Source of the DNA: Pandoraea oxalativorans
GTDB lineage: Bacteria > Pseudomonadota > Gammaproteobacteria > Burkholderiales > Burkholderiaceae
NCBI RefSeq assembly: GCF_000972785.3
Contig: NZ_CP011253.3
Coordinates: 2,108,001-2,172,000 of the forward strand
Direction: 5' to 3'
DNA: 64,000 nt
Below are positions 51,273-59,803 of the stretch, piece by piece. The notes under the pieces were generated by a model that was not told where the DNA came from, made no database searches, and saw only the letters and a list, made by a program, of their open reading frames with translations. Numbering within the stretch: position 1 is the first letter of the stretch; each line of letters begins with the position of its first letter. A program made the translations under genes and the position numbers.

Positions 51273-51650
51273 GCTGGGCACCTCTAACTAGCCAATCTGA
51301 GATTCCCGCCACCCGCTGCATTGCGCAGGGGTGGGCGGGCACTGGACTAGGTTAGCGAACCGCTGATGTACCAGGCTAAAGCGGCACACCCGAAGGTGTC
51401 CCAATCCAGGCCCACCCATAGATTGGATGTGCGTGGCAAATCGCACACGAAAGCCGCAATGTTCTGCGGCTGTGTGCCCTGGTATTCATCATTCGGGTCG
51501 CTAAACCCGGTCGCGTTTGGAGCGCGACGGGAACAAGATTATCGAGCCGACGTTATGGGCACCACGCGTTCGGAGTCGCATTCTAGGTCACTCGTTGAGA
51601 TTCAGATCATTCCGATGCCTCAATAGGGATTCTCCTTGGTCGACGGACCA
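51273..51650. other. Gene-poor accessory stretch left of the IS256-family copy
   Basis: About 380 bases without a convincing gene. It contains GGGAACAAGA (51529-51538) and CGTTCGGAGTCGCATT (51566-51581), which resemble parts of the palindrome array at 53674-53850. An 86-codon plus-strand frame at 51366 is present, but nothing supports it as a gene. Confidence 0.5.
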
Positions 51651-53081
51651 GAGCTATTGTCGAATCTGGTGTACGGGGTGCTTTGGGAAATATGAGAAGG
51701 CGGTGGCGGTTTAGCTGAGAATGTTGCTTGTCGAAGGCACACCGAGCAAAGCCGGCGCGAGCCGGCCCCGACCACCATGAAGAAGATTATGAAAGAAACG
51801 AACGGCAGAAAAGCACAAACGAAGAGCGCGCTCGATGAACTGATCCAGCAAGGCGCGCGGCAGATCATCGAGCAGGCAGTCGAAGCGGAACTGGCGAGCA
51901 TGCTTGAACAGTACAGCAACGTGAGGTCGATCGACGGTCGGCGTGCCGTGGTGCGCAACGGCTACCTACCAGAGCGCGAAGTCGTCACGGCCATCGGTCC
52001 GGTGCCGGTTCGGGTACCGAAGGTGCGTGATCGCTCGGGTTCGGGCATCCGCTTCAATTCGGCGGTCGTGCCGCCGTACGTTCGCAAATCCGCACGCGTG
52101 TCGGCCGCACTACCGTGGCTGTACCTGCGAGGCATCTCGACGGGCGACATGAGCGAAGCCATGGGCATCATGCTGGGCGGCCAGGTCAGCGGCCTGTCGC
52201 CAAATGTGGTGAGTCGTCTGAAGGCGCAATGGGCCGATGAGCATGCTCAGTGGAATCAGCGTGAGTTGTCGTTGGCGCGCTGGGTGTACTGGTGGGCTGA
52301 CGGCATTCACACCGGCGTGCGCAGCGACGATTCCGACGGCCAGTGCCTGTTGGTGATCATTGGTGTCAAACCGGACGGAACGAAAGAGCGTGTGGCGATC
52401 AGTGACGGGTATCGGGAATCGAAGGCGTCGTGGGCCGAACTGCTGCTCGATCTGAAAAAGCGCGGTCTGCAGTCAGGGCCGCTGCTGGCTTGCGGAGATG
52501 GTGCGATGGGATTCTGGGCAGCGATGGAAGAAGTGTTCCCGCAGACCAAGCATCAGCGCTGCTGGTTCCACAAGATGGGCAACGTGCTCAACGCGCTGCC
52601 GAAATCGCAGCAGGCCCGCGCCAAAAAGGCGATGCAGGACATTTGGATGGCCGCCACGCGTGCCGAAGCGCTGGTTGCCTTCAATCACTTCGTTGATACC
52701 CACTCGGCAAAGTATCCGAAGGTGGTCGAAAAGCTGACGCAAGATCGCGACGAGCTGCTGGCATTTTACGATTTCCCGGCCGAACACTGGCAGCATCTGC
52801 GCACGACGAATCCGATTGAATCGACCTTCGCGACGGTGCGTCACCGCACCAAGCGCACGCGTAACTGCGTCTCGCGCGCGACGTTCCTCGGCCTGGCATT
52901 CAAGCTGATCGAGTCGGCCGAAGACTCGTGGCGGCGCATCCGCGCCCCCGAAAAGATCGCGACGATGCTTGACGGGATGACGTTCAAGGATGGAGAGCCG
53001 GTGACCGACAGCACACCGGCTCAGCAGCCCCTGGCCGCCTAATCTTGCTCACGCCCCGTACACCAGATTTGACTTTAACTC
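51651..53081 (+). mobile_element. IS256-family element, left copy
   Basis: A 1431-bp element with 26-bp inverted repeats (GAG-TATT/AAA-GTC-AATCTGGTGTACGG type). GGTCGACGG occurs directly after the right end (53082-53090) and again at 51638-51646, but four extra bases (ACCA) separate the left repeat from the left end. An inverted second copy lies at 58373-59803. Confidence 0.92.
51777..53042 (+). CDS. IS256-family transposase
   Basis: A 421-residue Mutator-type transposase, complete. Family features: WWADGIHTGVR (first Asp), LACGDGAMGFWAA (second Asp) followed by HQRCWFHKMGNVL, and TTNPIESTFATVRHRT with the catalytic Glu. The predicted protein is identical to that of the copy at 58412-59677. 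It is distinct from the IS256-family element at 35844. Confidence 0.95.
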   Translation: MKKIMKETNGRKAQTKSALDELIQQGARQIIEQAVEAELASMLEQYSNVRSIDGRRAVVRNGYLPEREVVTAIGPVPVRVPKVRDRSGSGIRFNSAVVPPYVRKSARVSAALPWLYLRGISTGDMSEAMGIMLGGQVSGLSPNVVSRLKAQWADEHAQWNQRELSLARWVYWWADGIHTGVRSDDSDGQCLLVIIGVKPDGTKERVAISDGYRESKASWAELLLDLKKRGLQSGPLLACGDGAMGFWAAMEEVFPQTKHQRCWFHKMGNVLNALPKSQQARAKKAMQDIWMAATRAEALVAFNHFVDTHSAKYPKVVEKLTQDRDELLAFYDFPAEHWQHLRTTNPIESTFATVRHRTKRTRNCVSRATFLGLAFKLIESAEDSWRRIRAPEKIATMLDGMTFKDGEPVTDSTPAQQPLAA

Positions 53082-53850: not shown

Positions 53851-53908
53851 CTTAGATAAGTTGGCTGTCTGAACCGCCCCGGATTTTGTGGAGATACCGT
53901 CTTGCCCG

Positions 53909-54892
53909 TCAAGCGATTGCGACGTAGTTCGCCCGATAAGGCTGTCGTGTCTTCAGAACGCCGAAACACAGATGCACAAGCTTACGCATTGCAGCGCCGA
54001 GTATAGACATGGTGGATTTGCCACGCGCTGCCAAGCGTTCACACAATGCCTTGATGTGGGGGTTATAGCGTTTAGCGACGACGGCCGCCATGTAGAGAGT
54101 TGCCCGTACCTTGGGCGGCCCGGCCTTCGATAAACGTGAAGGGCCCTGGATCGACGATCCCGACTGCCTCTGCACCGGCACCAGGCCGAGATACGCCGCA
54201 AGTTGTTCTGCAGAATCGAAGTGGCGCGCGTGCATGATGGCAAGCAGCGTGCGGCCTACCTGAGGGCCAACTGCCGGGATACTTTGCAGCAGCATCAAGT
54301 TTGCTTTAAGGCCCGGATGGGCAGCAATGTGATCATCGATCTCGCGTTGCAGGCTGGCTAAATGGCGCTCCAAAAACTCGATCGTCTCGAGAATCGAATG
54401 CAGGACTAGCGCCGTTGGAGCCGTGATTTCCGCTTTCTCATGCCGGTTGCGCTCACGCTGAAGATCTTGTGCAAGCGCTTCACGGCGCGCCATCAGTGCT
54501 TGAAGTATGCGAGCCTCGGGCGCTGGAGGACTCCAGCGCATTGGCTGTGCGTGCATCGCAAAGCGCGCTAACACGTGGCTGTCTACCATGTCGTTCTTCG
54601 TGCGCACGCCCATTCCCGTCGCAAAAGCACGCACCTGCGCAGGATTAACGACAGACACGGAGAGCCCGGCATCGTGCAGGCCACACGCGGCCATCTCGTG
54701 ATAGACGCCGGTACCTTCGAGCGCGACATGTACGTGGCTCGGCTCGGTGTGTCTCTTGCCCAACCAGCCCAACAGATCGGTTAGGCCGGCGCGGCTATTG
54801 GCAACAACCTTCGTACTACGCTTGCCGTTTGTCATGTCCAGCAGGCAGCAATCCAGCTTGGCTTTGGCAACATCAATACCGAGGTAGAACAT
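53909..54892 (-). CDS. IS110-family transposase (recombinase)
   Basis: A 327-residue recombinase with an N-terminal RuvC-like DEDD domain (FYLGIDVAKAKLD; VALEGTGVYHE; KNDMVDSHVLARFA) and a C-terminal domain with the catalytic serine region (LQSIPAVGPQVGRTLLAIM; YLGLVPVQRQSGSS). The start MFYLGIDVAK at 54892 is preferred to the longer frame that runs into the guide-RNA region. Confidence 0.93.
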   Translation of the reverse strand: MFYLGIDVAKAKLDCCLLDMTNGKRSTKVVANSRAGLTDLLGWLGKRHTEPSHVHVALEGTGVYHEMAACGLHDAGLSVSVVNPAQVRAFATGMGVRTKNDMVDSHVLARFAMHAQPMRWSPPAPEARILQALMARREALAQDLQRERNRHEKAEITAPTALVLHSILETIEFLERHLASLQREIDDHIAAHPGLKANLMLLQSIPAVGPQVGRTLLAIMHARHFDSAEQLAAYLGLVPVQRQSGSSIQGPSRLSKAGPPKVRATLYMAAVVAKRYNPHIKALCERLAARGKSTMSILGAAMRKLVHLCFGVLKTRQPYRANYVAIA

Positions 54893-55101
54893 CAATTTGA
54901 TCCTTAATCGAGGAATCAATACCAACTCACCCACTTGCCTTGTACATACAGGGTCCACGCCCTTGGCTACCGTTCAGTGTCTGTGCTGGTGAGGGCGAGG
55001 CGAAGGGCATTATCTCCACAGCAAGGTCCAAGCCTTCAGGCTCCAAACATGCTCACTTCACCTCATGTGACGGTAGCTAACCATCACGAAGACGAAGATA
55101 C
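54893..55101 (-). ncRNA. Probable bridge (seek) RNA of the IS110-family element
   Basis: On the minus strand, the segment at 55051-55007 can fold as a GCAU/AUGC stem, an internal loop, and an AAGG/CCUU hairpin. The 5' side of the loop has UUGGAGCCU (55046-55038), identical to the left half of the target in element orientation; the 3' side has UGUGGAGAUA (55020-55011), complementary to the right half. These are 9- and 10-base matches to the flanks at 55103-55111 and 53887-53896. GGCAAG near 54937 also matches the element's own end and may be part of the donor loop. Confidence 0.65.
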
Positions 55102-55130
55102 AAGGCTCCAACTCTTGAGAGAATGGAGCC

Positions 55131-55457
55131 ATGAACAAGAGATCGAGCAAGTTTTCCCCGGAAGTCCGGGAGCGCGCAGTGCGCCTGGTGCGCGAGCAGC
55201 GTAGCGAGCATCCGTCGCTGTGGGCGGCGGTCGAGTCGATTGCGCCGATGATCGGCTGCACGCCGCAAACGCTGAACGATTGGGTCAAGCGCGACGAGAT
55301 CGATAACGGCGAACGTGCCGGCCTGAGCGCGAGCGAGCGTGATCGCCTGAAGGCGCTGGAGCGCGAGAACAAGGAATTGCGCAAGACCAACGAGATTCTC
55401 AAACTGGCCAGCGCGTTTTTCGCCCAGGCGGAGCTCGACCGCCGTATCAAGTCCTGA
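55131..55457 (+). CDS. IS3-family transposase OrfA
   Basis: A 108-residue helix-turn-helix/leucine-zipper protein ([54 protein letters not shown]) that binds the element ends. It normally makes the active transposase by -1 frameshifting into orfB. Confidence 0.92.
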
Positions 55458-56052
55458 AAGCCTTCATCGATCAGCATCGCGACACCTTCGGGGTCGAGTC
55501 GATCTGCAAGGTTTTGCGGATTGCCCCGTCGGGTTACTGGCGCCATGCTGCCCAGCTTCGCGATCCATCCAAGCGCTGCGCCCGAGTCAAGCGTGACGAC
55601 GTGCTGTGCCCGGAAATCCAGCGTGTCTGGCACGCCAACATGCGGGTCTACGGCGCAGACAAGGTCTGGAGGCAGATGAACCGGGAGCAAATTCGGGTGG
55701 CCCGCTGCACGGTCGAGCGACTGATGCAGCGGCTGGGATTGCAAGGCGCGGTGCGCGGCAAACGGGTTCGCACAACGATTCCCGATGTCTCGGCACCTCG
55801 CCCGCTGGACCGGGTCAATCGCCAATTCAAAGCCGACCGGCCGAATCAGCTCTGGGTTTCCGATTTCACCTACGTTTCGACGTGGCAGGGCTGGCTGTAC
55901 GTGGCGTTCGTCATCGACGTGTTTGCACGACGCATCGTTGGCTGGCGGGTGAGTCGTACCATGCGCACCGACTTCGTACTCGATGCGCTTGAACAAGCGC
56001 TGTATGCCCGCCAACCGGGCGACGACGGGACGCTGATCCATCACTCCGACAG
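55454..56052 (+). pseudogene. IS3-family transposase OrfB, 5' part
   Basis: The frame includes the integrase core start ([20 protein letters not shown] with the first Asp, [13 protein letters not shown] with the second) and stops at the IS110-family insertion after HHSD. The rest is at 57444-57759 and restores HSDRGSQYVSIRYTERLAQ across the junction. Confidence 0.88.
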
Positions 56053-56339
56053 TAAGAATACGGGTATCAGATGTTTCCGGGCTTCTCGCGGCTTTCAATG
56101 AGGGCTGTCCGGCGACTTTTGGTGCCGTAAAGCGTTCCGGGCGACCTGACCCACATTCCGATCGACGTAGTGTCTTTCCCCTGACCTGTCGATCGTCCGG
56201 AACCGCCGAGCGGCGAGGTTTCGCCTCGTCGATACGTGTGACTCAAGAAGGGCCTGACGCTCTGTCGCTTTACTGTCTTGTCCAGGTACTCGATGCCGGT
56301 GAAATCGCCTCAATCTCATCGGCAACCGGAGCAAGGCTC
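56053..56339 (+). ncRNA. Candidate guide-RNA region of the second IS110-family element
   Basis: A long non-coding leader. It has a perfect stem CGATCGAC/GTCGATCG (56159-56166, 56188-56195) with a 21-base loop holding TCCCCTG (56177-56183), the complement of the target right half including the core (CAGGGGA). The left guide is not obvious, so this is weaker than the other case. Confidence 0.3.
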
Positions 56340-57425
56340 ATGAAAGAAGAACCGGCTATTTCTGGATATCGCAACGTTGTGGGCGGCGTGGATACCCATA
56401 AGGACGTGCATGTTGCAGCTGTCGTTGACGAACACGATCGTCTGCTCGGCAGTGAATGCTTCCCTACCACGCGGCATGGCTACAAACAGATGCTGCTCTG
56501 GATGCGCTCATTCGGAGAGCTTGCCCGGGTTGGCGTCGAATGCACCGGCTCCTACGGAGCGGGCTTGCTTCGCTACCTTCAACTGGCCCACGTAACGGTG
56601 CTTGAGGTCACGGCACCCGACAGGAGCGACCGGCGCAAACGCGGCAAGGACGACACGCTGGACGCTTGCAACGCGGCGCATGCTGCCTTTGCTGGTGTGC
56701 GTACAGTCACGCCCAAGACACGCGACGGCATGATTGAATCGCTGCGCGTTCTGAAAGTCTGCCGGAAGACCGCCATCTCCGCGAGGCGCGTTGCATTGCA
56801 ACTAATTCACAGTACCATCATCAGCGCGCCTGACGAGTTACGCGAATCGCTGCGCAAGATGACACGGATGCAGCTTATTCGAACATTGGCCGCGTGGCGT
56901 CCCGATCTGTCTGACTATCGGAGCCTGATCTCTGCCAACCGGATTGCATTAAAATCACTGGGGCGTCGGTATCTCGAGTTGCACGACGAGATCGCCGACC
57001 TCGATGTCATGATCGCGGCTCTGGTCGATGAACTCGCCCCCGATCTGGTCTCCCGGTATTCAATTGGCTATGAGTCCGCTTCGCAACTGCTACTGACCGC
57101 TGGCGACAACAGCGACCGGCTTCAGTCAGAGGCCAGCTTCGCCGCCCTCTGTGGAGTGAGTCCCGTCCCGGCGTCTTCTGGCAAGGTGACACGACATCGA
57201 CTGAATCGCGGTGGAGATCGCGCGGCCAACAGCGCCCTGCACATTATCGCCATCGGTCGATTGCGAACCGACGATCGCACAAAAGCCTATGTCGCCAAAC
57301 GCGTCAGCGAGGGCCACTCAAAGCTTGAAGCGATTCGATGCCTCAAGCGCTATATCGCACGAGAGGTCTTCTACGCCATCCGGCAACGTTACCGCCAGAT
57401 CGCGCAGACCCAATTTACCTCTTGA
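56340..57425 (+). CDS. IS110-family transposase (second type)
   Basis: A 361-residue recombinase from MKEEPAISGYRNVVGGVDTH (56340). DEDD motifs: GGVDTHKDVHVAA, GVECTGSYGAG, KRGKDDTLDACNAAHAA; the C-terminal domain has FAALCGVSPVPASSGKVTRH and RGGDRAANSALH. It is clearly different from the IS110-family protein at 53909. Confidence 0.93.
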   Translation: MKEEPAISGYRNVVGGVDTHKDVHVAAVVDEHDRLLGSECFPTTRHGYKQMLLWMRSFGELARVGVECTGSYGAGLLRYLQLAHVTVLEVTAPDRSDRRKRGKDDTLDACNAAHAAFAGVRTVTPKTRDGMIESLRVLKVCRKTAISARRVALQLIHSTIISAPDELRESLRKMTRMQLIRTLAAWRPDLSDYRSLISANRIALKSLGRRYLELHDEIADLDVMIAALVDELAPDLVSRYSIGYESASQLLLTAGDNSDRLQSEASFAALCGVSPVPASSGKVTRHRLNRGGDRAANSALHIIAIGRLRTDDRTKAYVAKRVSEGHSKLEAIRCLKRYIAREVFYAIRQRYRQIAQTQFTS

Positions 57426-57443
57426 CCTTTAGAAGGGCGTCAG

Positions 57444-57759
57444 GGGATCGCAATATGTTTCCATTCGGTACACCGAGCGACTTGCCCAAGCGGGCATTGA
57501 GCCATCGGTCGGCAGCCGCGGCGACAGCTATGACAACGCCCTGGCGGAAACGATCAACGGTCTATACAAAACGGAACTGATTCACCGGCGAGCGCCTTGG
57601 AAAACGAAGGAATCCGTCGAGCTCGCCACCCTGGAATGGGTAGCCTGGTACAACCATCATCGGCTGATGGAACCGCTGGGCTATATCCCGCCAGCCGAGG
57701 CTGAGGCAAACTACTACAGGCAACTCAGAAATACTGCTGAAGCGCCTGCGTTAACTTAA
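57444..57759 (+). pseudogene. IS3-family transposase OrfB, 3' part
   Basis: Continues the split OrfB with SIRYTERLAQAGIEPSVGSR, GDSYDNALAETINGLYKTEL (catalytic Glu) and WYNHHRLMEPLGYIPPAEAE, ending TAA 57759. Confidence 0.9.
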
Positions 57760-57833
57760 ACCAACCGGCCTCCTCGAAAGCCGGGGCGATTCACTGATTA
57801 TGGATTGCGAGAACTTTGATGATGCATATCGAT

Positions 57834-58372: not shown

Positions 58373-59803
58373 GAGTTAAAGTCAAATCTGGTGTACGGGG
58401 CGTGAGCAAGATTAGGCGGCCAGGGGCTGCTGAGCCGGTGTGCTGTCGGTCACCGGCTCTCCATCCTTGAACGTCATCCCGTCAAGCATCGTCGCGATCT
58501 TTTCGGGGGCGCGGATGCGCCGCCACGAGTCTTCGGCCGACTCGATCAGCTTGAATGCCAGGCCGAGGAACGTCGCGCGCGAGACGCAGTTACGCGTGCG
58601 CTTGGTGCGGTGACGCACCGTCGCGAAGGTCGATTCAATCGGATTCGTCGTGCGCAGATGCTGCCAGTGTTCGGCCGGGAAATCGTAAAATGCCAGCAGC
58701 TCGTCGCGATCTTGCGTCAGCTTTTCGACCACCTTCGGATACTTTGCCGAGTGGGTATCAACGAAGTGATTGAAGGCAACCAGCGCTTCGGCACGCGTGG
58801 CGGCCATCCAAATGTCCTGCATCGCCTTTTTGGCGCGGGCCTGCTGCGATTTCGGCAGCGCGTTGAGCACGTTGCCCATCTTGTGGAACCAGCAGCGCTG
58901 ATGCTTGGTCTGCGGGAACACTTCTTCCATCGCTGCCCAGAATCCCATCGCACCATCTCCGCAAGCCAGCAGCGGCCCTGACTGCAGACCGCGCTTTTTC
59001 AGATCGAGCAGCAGTTCGGCCCACGACGCCTTCGATTCCCGATACCCGTCACTGATCGCCACACGCTCTTTCGTTCCGTCCGGTTTGACACCAATGATCA
59101 CCAACAGGCACTGGCCGTCGGAATCGTCGCTGCGCACGCCGGTGTGAATGCCGTCAGCCCACCAGTACACCCAGCGCGCCAACGACAACTCACGCTGATT
59201 CCACTGAGCATGCTCATCGGCCCATTGCGCCTTCAGACGACTCACCACATTTGGCGACAGGCCGCTGACCTGGCCGCCCAGCATGATGCCCATGGCTTCG
59301 CTCATGTCGCCCGTCGAGATGCCTCGCAGGTACAGCCACGGTAGTGCGGCCGACACGCGTGCGGATTTGCGAACGTACGGCGGCACGACCGCCGAATTGA
59401 AGCGGATGCCCGAACCCGAGCGATCACGCACCTTCGGTACCCGAACCGGCACCGGACCGATGGCCGTGACGACTTCGCGCTCTGGTAGGTAGCCGTTGCG
59501 CACCACGGCACGCCGACCGTCGATCGACCTCACGTTGCTGTACTGTTCAAGCATGCTCGCCAGTTCCGCTTCGACTGCCTGCTCGATGATCTGCCGCGCG
59601 CCTTGCTGGATCAGTTCATCGAGCGCGCTCTTCGTTTGTGCTTTTCTGCCGTTCGTTTCTTTCATAATCTTCTTCATGGTGGTCGGGGCCGGCTCGCGCC
59701 GGCTTTGCTCGGTGTGCCTTCGACAAGCAACATTCTCAGCTAAACCGCCACCGCCTTCTCATATTTCCCAAAGCACTCCGTACACCAGATTCGACAATAG
59801 CTC
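58373..59803 (-). mobile_element. IS256-family element, right copy, inside the integrase gene
   Basis: 1431 bp, the same length as the copy at 51651 and in inverted orientation, with one base difference seen near the left end of the element. It is bounded by the exact 9-bp repeat AATGTTCGA (58364-58372, 59804-59812). Confidence 0.95.
58412..59677 (-). CDS. IS256-family transposase, second copy
   Basis: 421 residues with a predicted protein identical to that at 51777-53042, and intact. Two active sources of this transposase are therefore present. Confidence 0.95.
   Translation of the reverse strand: MKKIMKETNGRKAQTKSALDELIQQGARQIIEQAVEAELASMLEQYSNVRSIDGRRAVVRNGYLPEREVVTAIGPVPVRVPKVRDRSGSGIRFNSAVVPPYVRKSARVSAALPWLYLRGISTGDMSEAMGIMLGGQVSGLSPNVVSRLKAQWADEHAQWNQRELSLARWVYWWADGIHTGVRSDDSDGQCLLVIIGVKPDGTKERVAISDGYRESKASWAELLLDLKKRGLQSGPLLACGDGAMGFWAAMEEVFPQTKHQRCWFHKMGNVLNALPKSQQARAKKAMQDIWMAATRAEALVAFNHFVDTHSAKYPKVVEKLTQDRDELLAFYDFPAEHWQHLRTTNPIESTFATVRHRTKRTRNCVSRATFLGLAFKLIESAEDSWRRIRAPEKIATMLDGMTFKDGEPVTDSTPAQQPLAA

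Follow-up and report, generated by a model that had tools for sequence, protein, structure and literature searches.

A putative bridge RNA of an IS110-family element in Pandoraea oxalativorans matches a target just inside the left end of an IS3-family element

The window analysed here, a 64,000-nucleotide stretch of the Pandoraea oxalativorans genome, contains an IS3-family element that carries two different IS110-family elements (Table 1). The first, which is the subject of this work and is hereafter termed the IS110 element, lies between the IS3 left end and orfA, and the second lies inside orfB. C4 antisense RNAs are a feature of P4-type phages or satellites. One is present near the insertion-sequence region (51327–51423, minus strand; Rfam RF01695, 59.9 bits), and two 421-aa reading frames of identical sequence, one on each strand (51777–53042 and 58412–59677), both of which look transposase-like by eye, flank the IS3/IS110 nest.

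The recombinase of the IS110 element has the domain content of the IS110 family. Specifically, it contains PF01548 (E 9.3e-27) and PF02371 (E 4.2e-23), scores 229.1 bits against NF033542 (cut-off 140), and aligns through residues 2–322 with the solved structures of IS621 and ISCro4 (8wt6, E 8.4e-63; 9t56, E 3.1e-58). The published catalytic residues of IS621 are D11, E60, D102, D105, and S241 (PMC11208158); counted by hand on the alignment, with a chain offset of 2 assumed, residues D7, E59, D101, and D104 and the first S of SGSS align with them. A long non-coding leader precedes the recombinase gene, as in the IS110 group, with a length of 210 nt in the IS110 element and 204–235 nt in 20 relatives.

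Table 1. Positions in the window of the features of the IS3/IS110 nest and of the proposed bridge RNA
Feature	Position	Strand	Basis or remark
IS3-family element carrying the IS110 element and the second IS110 element	53870..57793	+	3,924 bp in all; ALIL pseudoknot 55412–55528
Core dinucleotide AG, right-end copy (transposase strand: CT)	53892..53893	−	Comparison with empty IS3 sites
IS110 element	53894..55102	−	1,209 bp without both core dinucleotides; borders fixed by 15 own-genome left ends with variable flanks and by empty IS3 sites in relatives
−35-like box TTGACG, right end, for use in the predicted circle	53907..53912	−	17-nt spacing to the −10-like box over the junction
IS110 recombinase, 327 aa, DEDD domain and Transposase_20	53909..54892	−	Pfam, NCBIfam, alignment to solved structures
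Leader encoding the proposed bridge RNA	54893..55102	−	Covarying fold, 18 leaders
Donor-binding loop	54926..54993	−	Helices 5–8; coordinates by hand count
Donor-loop handshake guide GC	54937..54938	−	Follows UACAAG; complement of left-target ..GC
Right donor guide TACAAG	54939..54944	−	Complement of left-end CT-TGTA; ACAAG invariant in 18/18 leaders
Left donor guide ACGGTA	54968..54973	−	Equals right-end ACGGTA(T)-CT; ACGGT invariant in 18/18 leaders
Target-binding loop	54998..55063	−	Helices 2–4; coordinates by hand count
Target-loop handshake guide AU	55012..55013	−	Complementary to the last two right-end bases (..AT|CT); next base A pairs too; definition as in PMC11208158
Right target guide TGTGGAG, 5 + core	55014..55020	−	Complement of CT-CCACA
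Left target guide TTGGAGCCT, 7 + core	55038..55046	−	Equals left target TTGGAGC-CT
5′ stem-loop GTGATGGT-TAGCT-ACCGTCAC	55067..55087	−	Helix 1, 95.2% of cells paired; coordinates by hand count
−10-like box TATCTT, left end	55095..55100	−	As for the −35-like box; same layout in 12/12 relatives checked
Core dinucleotide AG, left-end copy (transposase strand: CT)	55103..55104	−	Comparison with empty IS3 sites
Second IS110-family element, distinct from the first, in IS3 orfB	56053..57440	+	Repeated CAG leaves an ambiguity of up to 3 bases at the ends

The borders of the IS110 element were read by comparison with empty IS3 ends of genus relatives. A string search with AACTCTTGAGAG gave readable sites at 8 of 12 loci, all eight of which read GGAG-GCTCCAACTC; the IS110 element therefore spans 53894–55102, with AG at both ends. 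From the uninterrupted IS3 ends, the target is TGTGG-AG-GCTCCAA, and the full target TGTGGAGGCTCCAA, written TTTTGTGGAGGCTCCAACT, is present in three of the eight readable ends. The core read on the transposase strand, CT, is the core published for IS621, and no duplication extends beyond it, as in the IS110 group; among relatives the core deviates in one element (TT in L175) and at one right end (TT in L058). A preliminary description of the window had proposed that an IS110 element interrupts an IS3 leader, such that the original target can be read, and this is borne out with a correction to the target letters. In particular, the half-target TGTGGAGATA given there is ruled out by the empty IS3 sites, in which the letters ATA are seen to belong to the element.

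The leader of the IS110 element reveals two internal loops with guides in the order left target guide (LTG), right target guide (RTG), left donor guide (LDG), and right donor guide (RDG), the arrangement of a bridge RNA (seekRNA). The leader location, the strand order, and the positions of both target matches (TTGGAGCCT at 55046–55038 and TGTGGAGATA at 55020–55011, minus strand) are as the preliminary description had them; the second, ten-base match is composed of TGTGGAG, which is target, and ATA, which is the element's own right end. Folding with covariance against relatives, the check proposed with that description, yielded a conserved, covarying fold over 18 of 21 leaders (L060, L065, and L104 were omitted as near-duplicate or divergent). 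Specifically, RNAalifold returned 35 pairs, with both sides changed in 25, and the fold includes both the GCAU/AUGC closing helix and the AAGG/CCUU hairpin noted earlier. Pairing is present in 94.9% of cells, and covariation is 0.585, versus 0.263 for shuffled alignments and at most 0.164 for slid versions, over which the fold has the advantage of having been derived from the alignment used to score it. One of five measures, the number of further pair types, was not above shuffles (450 of 500). Within the 18 aligned leaders, ACGGT and ACAAG of the donor-binding loop are invariant and the target guides are variable. Rfam gave four matches at gathering score in the window, none of which covers the leader.

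The match between guides and target was assessed against shuffled leaders and against other insertions of the same element. In dinucleotide shuffles of the leader, an ordered and spaced 9 + 7 match was reached in 2 of 20,000 (about 1e-4), which is improbable by chance, as had been claimed, but less extreme than the claim implied. The own genome (G000, 6.5 Mb) contains at least 26 matches to the IS110 element (40 of 88 candidates scored), with at least 15 left ends in the window orientation: 10 follow the IS3 end TGAACCGCCCCGGATTTTGTGGAG and 5 follow other sequence. Four near-identical copies are present in two genus relatives (L041, L052, and L055 in G031; L042 in G027), none inside IS3. As a stronger and more independent test than the shuffles, the nine insertions outside IS3 in these three genomes (L006, L007, L008, L012/L019, L014/L013, L041, L042, L052, and L055) were scored at 12 guide positions, with one skipped left-target base permitted both for the sites and for a null of 864 AG sites in the same flanks. 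They match at 81 of 108 positions, far above the null mean of 33.6, a sum that none of 200,000 draws attained. Individually, the sites have 7 to 11 of 12 matches, the weakest being L014/L013 (7/12, a score met by 3.4% of null AG sites), and the IS3 site, with 12/12, is the best of the ten. All ten sites have GG adjoining the core, and 2 to 5 of the five right-target letters match at the non-IS3 sites, in agreement with the IS621 RTG, which is described in PMC11208160 as short (4), with optional extension to 7. Copies with the same guides at unrelated sites had been named in the preliminary description as evidence against guiding; such copies exist (5 of 15 own-genome left ends and all four copies in the two relatives), but the nine match the guides and so do not refute it. 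We read these nine insertions as relaxed-target use.

At three of the nine non-IS3 targets (L008, L052, and L055), the left-target match is displaced by one base, and the extra base adjoins the core. The corresponding empty sites, read in 7, 8, and 9 relatives, respectively, have the same length; the extra base is therefore part of the target, and its gain upon insertion is ruled out. Across the core, the empty site in L144 has the same letters as L008 (GTGCGG-AG-AGCTCCAATTGCAG), and relatives of the L052 and L055 sites differ by some letters. Off-target sites of IS621 likewise seem to tolerate insertions (PMC11208160).

Comparison across homologues provides a further test. We assembled 21 elements (the IS110 element and 20 relatives with a recognisable left end) from genome and plasmid matches, using 11 of 40 genome loci (L063, a leader without a left end, was dropped; the others are more distant or are end fragments) and 6 of 2,741 plasmid records; L181 and L182 were left out of the set. 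Over nine letters of left target, the 21 elements match their own leaders at 164 of 189 positions, whereas 100,000 permutations averaged 121.9 and none was as high; over seven letters of right target, 13 elements match at 81 of 91, compared with a mean of 62.3 (1 of 100,000), near-duplicate rows (L104/L124, L059/L061, and L060/L064) making both permutation results optimistic. Right flanks were chosen by eye with the motif GACGGTA(T/G) for the IS110 element and 12 relatives, and none was used for the other 8 of the 21. The poorest fits are L179 (5/9) and L065, L174, and L177 (6/9) on the left and L057, L058, and L062 (5/7) on the right; L060 is mismatched on both sides (7/9 left, 4/7 right). 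Overall, the predicted guides co-vary with the targets among homologues, as in bridge RNAs (seekRNAs).

Three relatives deserve separate mention. In L104 (1452–1510; G068), the left end is joined to a guide segment from another copy of its own leader, and one half of the target was apparently the guide DNA itself. In L060 (290–526; Acinetobacter), the flanks fit the element's own guide poorly but, judged by eye, match that of L064 from the same strain; replacement of the guide after insertion is possible. In L175 (984–1200; a Serratia symbiotica plasmid), which has the TT core, the guide fits this core (AGCGATTTT, 9/9).

Two alternative accounts of the leader can be weighed against these data. 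The matches could represent captured IS3 end sequence, acquired by gene conversion or in an earlier hop, with targeting carried out by protein alone; the matches are short, and a guide that equals its target is what any captured flank would give. However, the two matches lie on opposite strands within one covarying structure, relatives with different guide letters match different flanks, and the same guides fit nine other sites of the same element, which makes capture extremely improbable. Alternatively, the leader could serve not as a guide but to regulate translation of the transposase or to attenuate transcription, consistent with its strong structure and its position directly upstream of the recombinase gene. 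As a full account this is very improbable, because the guide segments are poorly conserved within a conserved scaffold and track the target, and the leader may have a regulatory side role. The reading of the leader as a guide-bearing bridge RNA, put forward in the preliminary description, agrees with every sequence feature tested, and donor guides and handshake bases are present besides.

In the IS110 element, the proposed handshake bases of both loops are complementary to the opposite DNA. In IS621, A81 and U82 beside the RTG act as handshake guides, pairing with donor positions 6–7 once strands have been exchanged (PMC11208158). In the IS110 element, the letters that follow UGUGGAG are AU(A), and the right end of the element reads ..TAT-CT; AU(A) faces this end, and the inserted product therefore matches seven target letters and three element letters. 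Among 13 elements with a right end, the target-loop handshake pair, scored by eye, is A-T in 11 and C-G in 2 (L177 and L178, from related hosts). For the donor-loop handshake, 20 elements have 13 canonical and 3 wobble combinations, and 5,468 of 100,000 permutations are as high (about 0.055); this is a weak test, and pairing across elements is suggestive only. Core pairing by the left donor guide is incomplete (guide ..GCC, donor ..TCT).

A junction of right end, CT, and left end (RE-CT-LE) would bring together TTGACG and TATCTT with a spacing of 17 nt in the IS110 element. When CT is likewise written in by us at the junctions of the 12 relatives with both ends, each of them has TTGACN-17-TATC(T/A)T.

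Taken together, the borders, core, guides, covarying fold, guide–target co-variation, promoter-like sequence, and enzyme alignment indicate that the leader very probably encodes a bridge RNA of the IS110 kind, which would guide both target and donor DNA in recombination at the CT core. The course of events that we propose, which takes in circle formation, transcription of the leader, RNA binding, and recombination as well as movement by IS3, would be as follows. An excised circle would rebuild a σ70-like promoter over the RE-CT-LE junction, from which the leader would be transcribed. The donor-binding loop would pair with the element's own ends (LDG ACGGUA and RDG UACAAG), and the target-binding loop would pair with the target, LTG UUGGAGC-CU with one strand and RTG UGUGGAG with the other. 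The DEDD/serine recombinase would swap strands at the CT core, after which the handshake bases AU and GC would pair with the opposite DNA. The full guide would specify 14 bp immediately within the left end of IS3 elements, and use would extend to GG-AG-(N)(G/A)CT sites that match the guides in part beyond this motif. Once in IS3, the IS110 element would travel along when IS3 transposes.

The relation between the IS110 element and IS3 was examined in the own genome. At least nine near-identical IS3 copies are present (40 of 112 candidates scored), and the IS110 element is at the same spot in all nine. Because these IS3 copies have the insertion in common but the 10 left ends located in IS3 have different outer flanks, an origin of these copies in many independent targeting events is rejected; most of them look like one insertion moved by IS3 transposition. 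Among eight composites with both ends, four are bounded by 3-bp duplications (CCG, TTC, CCT, and TCA) and four, including that of the window, have none; at two further IS3-located loci, a right end was not found. The second IS110 element is also present in eight of the nine IS3 copies. The ninth copy (L032/L170) has an open orfA of 108 aa and an open orfB stretch of 341 codons, and the first IS110 element of L170 is itself interrupted by a further insertion.

In four further lineages (L102, L103, L097, and L098), the right end of an IS110 element lies at the same IS3 point, in IS3 ends that differ by 1–2 letters from that of the window; only the right-end junction is readable, the other junction having been lost. 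Copies of this junction in two genomes of the same family are 98–99% identical, with the leader lost to a later IS3; a copy on a B. glumae plasmid (one of 19 listed records examined, of 78 matching in all) is 97% identical over 501 bases and truncated; and a copy on a P. fungorum plasmid is 82–87% identical and broken. The adjacent IS3 bodies in G342 and G337 (about 84%) are other IS3 copies that entered the IS110 leader later, so the host IS3 end is comparable over about 24 bp only. In the own genome, an 84–85% identical IS110 remnant beside a decayed IS3 end (L024) was kept outside the count. On the second contig of the own genome, a decayed IS110 end (84%) lies beside a decayed IS3 end (L193, 925–1039 and 2361–2547); this pairing is an older trace of the IS110/IS3 association.

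The exact 14-mer TGTGGAGGCTCCAA occurs four times among 32 genus genomes searched, in two genomes, and all four occurrences are IS3 left ends, one of them in an IS3 with an internal deletion; an exact search of the own genome found no free TGTGGAGGCTCCAA. The earlier claim that the target is another transposable element thus holds for the full guide, but nine copies lie outside IS3, and targeting of this kind is already published. It is conceivable, although on balance doubtful, that IS3 is not a preferred target at all and that the IS3-located copies descend from one chance insertion multiplied by IS3 transposition. The presence of the IS110 element in every near-identical IS3 copy, the differing outer flanks, the 3-bp duplications kept in half of the composites, and the nine insertions elsewhere all fit such a history. 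The confinement of exact 14-mers to IS3 ends and the rank of IS3 as the best-matching site argue against it, as do the four lineages that share the right-end point in slightly different IS3 ends, for which common descent of the composites may account. Because 10 of 15 left ends are in IS3, 4 of 8 composites have 3-bp duplications, and the IS3 frames of L170 are open, we tentatively raise an RNA-guided choice of carrier, in which the bridge RNA would be selected to place the IS110 element between an IS3 end and orfA with a working IS3 as vehicle, although this reading is itself not the likelier outcome. If it were correct, the same right-end junction in four other lineages would represent repeated use of the strategy. 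The association suggests guide-directed spread of an insertion sequence by its target transposon.

The second IS110 element interrupts IS3 orfB at the codons for HHSD-RGSQY. An IS3 element in G337 (L192; 84% identical) bears an 83% identical copy of it at the same place, and its pairing with IS3 orfB looks old. A guide search for this element returned two 7-base target complements (56177 and 56185) and one 8-base match, which is about chance by rough estimate.

Based on the sequence features described above, the IS110 element joins the known class of bridge-RNA (seekRNA) systems and is not a new kind of system; the picture of the IS110 mechanism is unchanged. IS1383 belongs to the IS110 family. 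IS110 elements aimed at other insertion sequences are already known: targeting of IS3 has been published for ISEc21, an IS110-family member (PMC11187229), and targeting of IS1384 inverted repeats by IS1383 is reported in a title cited in PMC11208160. An IS110 element in an IS3 leader had no earlier description among the matches listed, which comprise titles and starts of abstracts, subscription papers being mostly outside coverage. What is added here is a new target inside IS3, a natural relaxed-target set, and a plausible carrier relationship. The contribution is a naturally occurring bridge-RNA candidate whose target is resolved, together with nine more natural target sites of a single guide and 20 homologues that mostly have different guides; natural tolerance of mismatches and bulges can be studied directly from these data.

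The closest comparisons are as follows. With IS621 (PMC11208160 and PMC11208158), the IS110 element shares the upstream leader with a 5′ stem-loop, the target- and donor-binding loops with LTG, RTG, LDG, and RDG, the CT core, a promoter-like sequence at the junction, the proposed handshake bases, AU in both target loops, and the apparent tolerance of inserted target bases at off-target sites (PMC11208160). Its recombinase is a distant homologue of the IS621 enzyme (215.8 bits over residues 2–322), and it differs from IS621 in its guide letters and in its target, which is the IS3 left end rather than REP. With ISEc21 (PMC11187229), it shares the family, the upstream non-coding region, an IS3-family target, and two opposite-strand guide segments; compared by described site, ISEc21 reportedly enters the codons that surround the second DDE aspartate of IS3, whereas the IS110 element enters just inside the IS3 left end, before orfA, and it is the second IS110 element of the window that sits at an ISEc21-type place. 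IS1383 likewise specifically targets an end region of an insertion sequence, but of a different one. IS4321/IS5075 of the IS1111 group enter Tn21-type terminal repeats (reference list of PMC11187229), and thus likewise insert site-specifically close to the end of another mobile element; by description, however, the guide region of the IS1111 group is downstream and reversed in order (PMC11187229), unlike that of the IS110 element.
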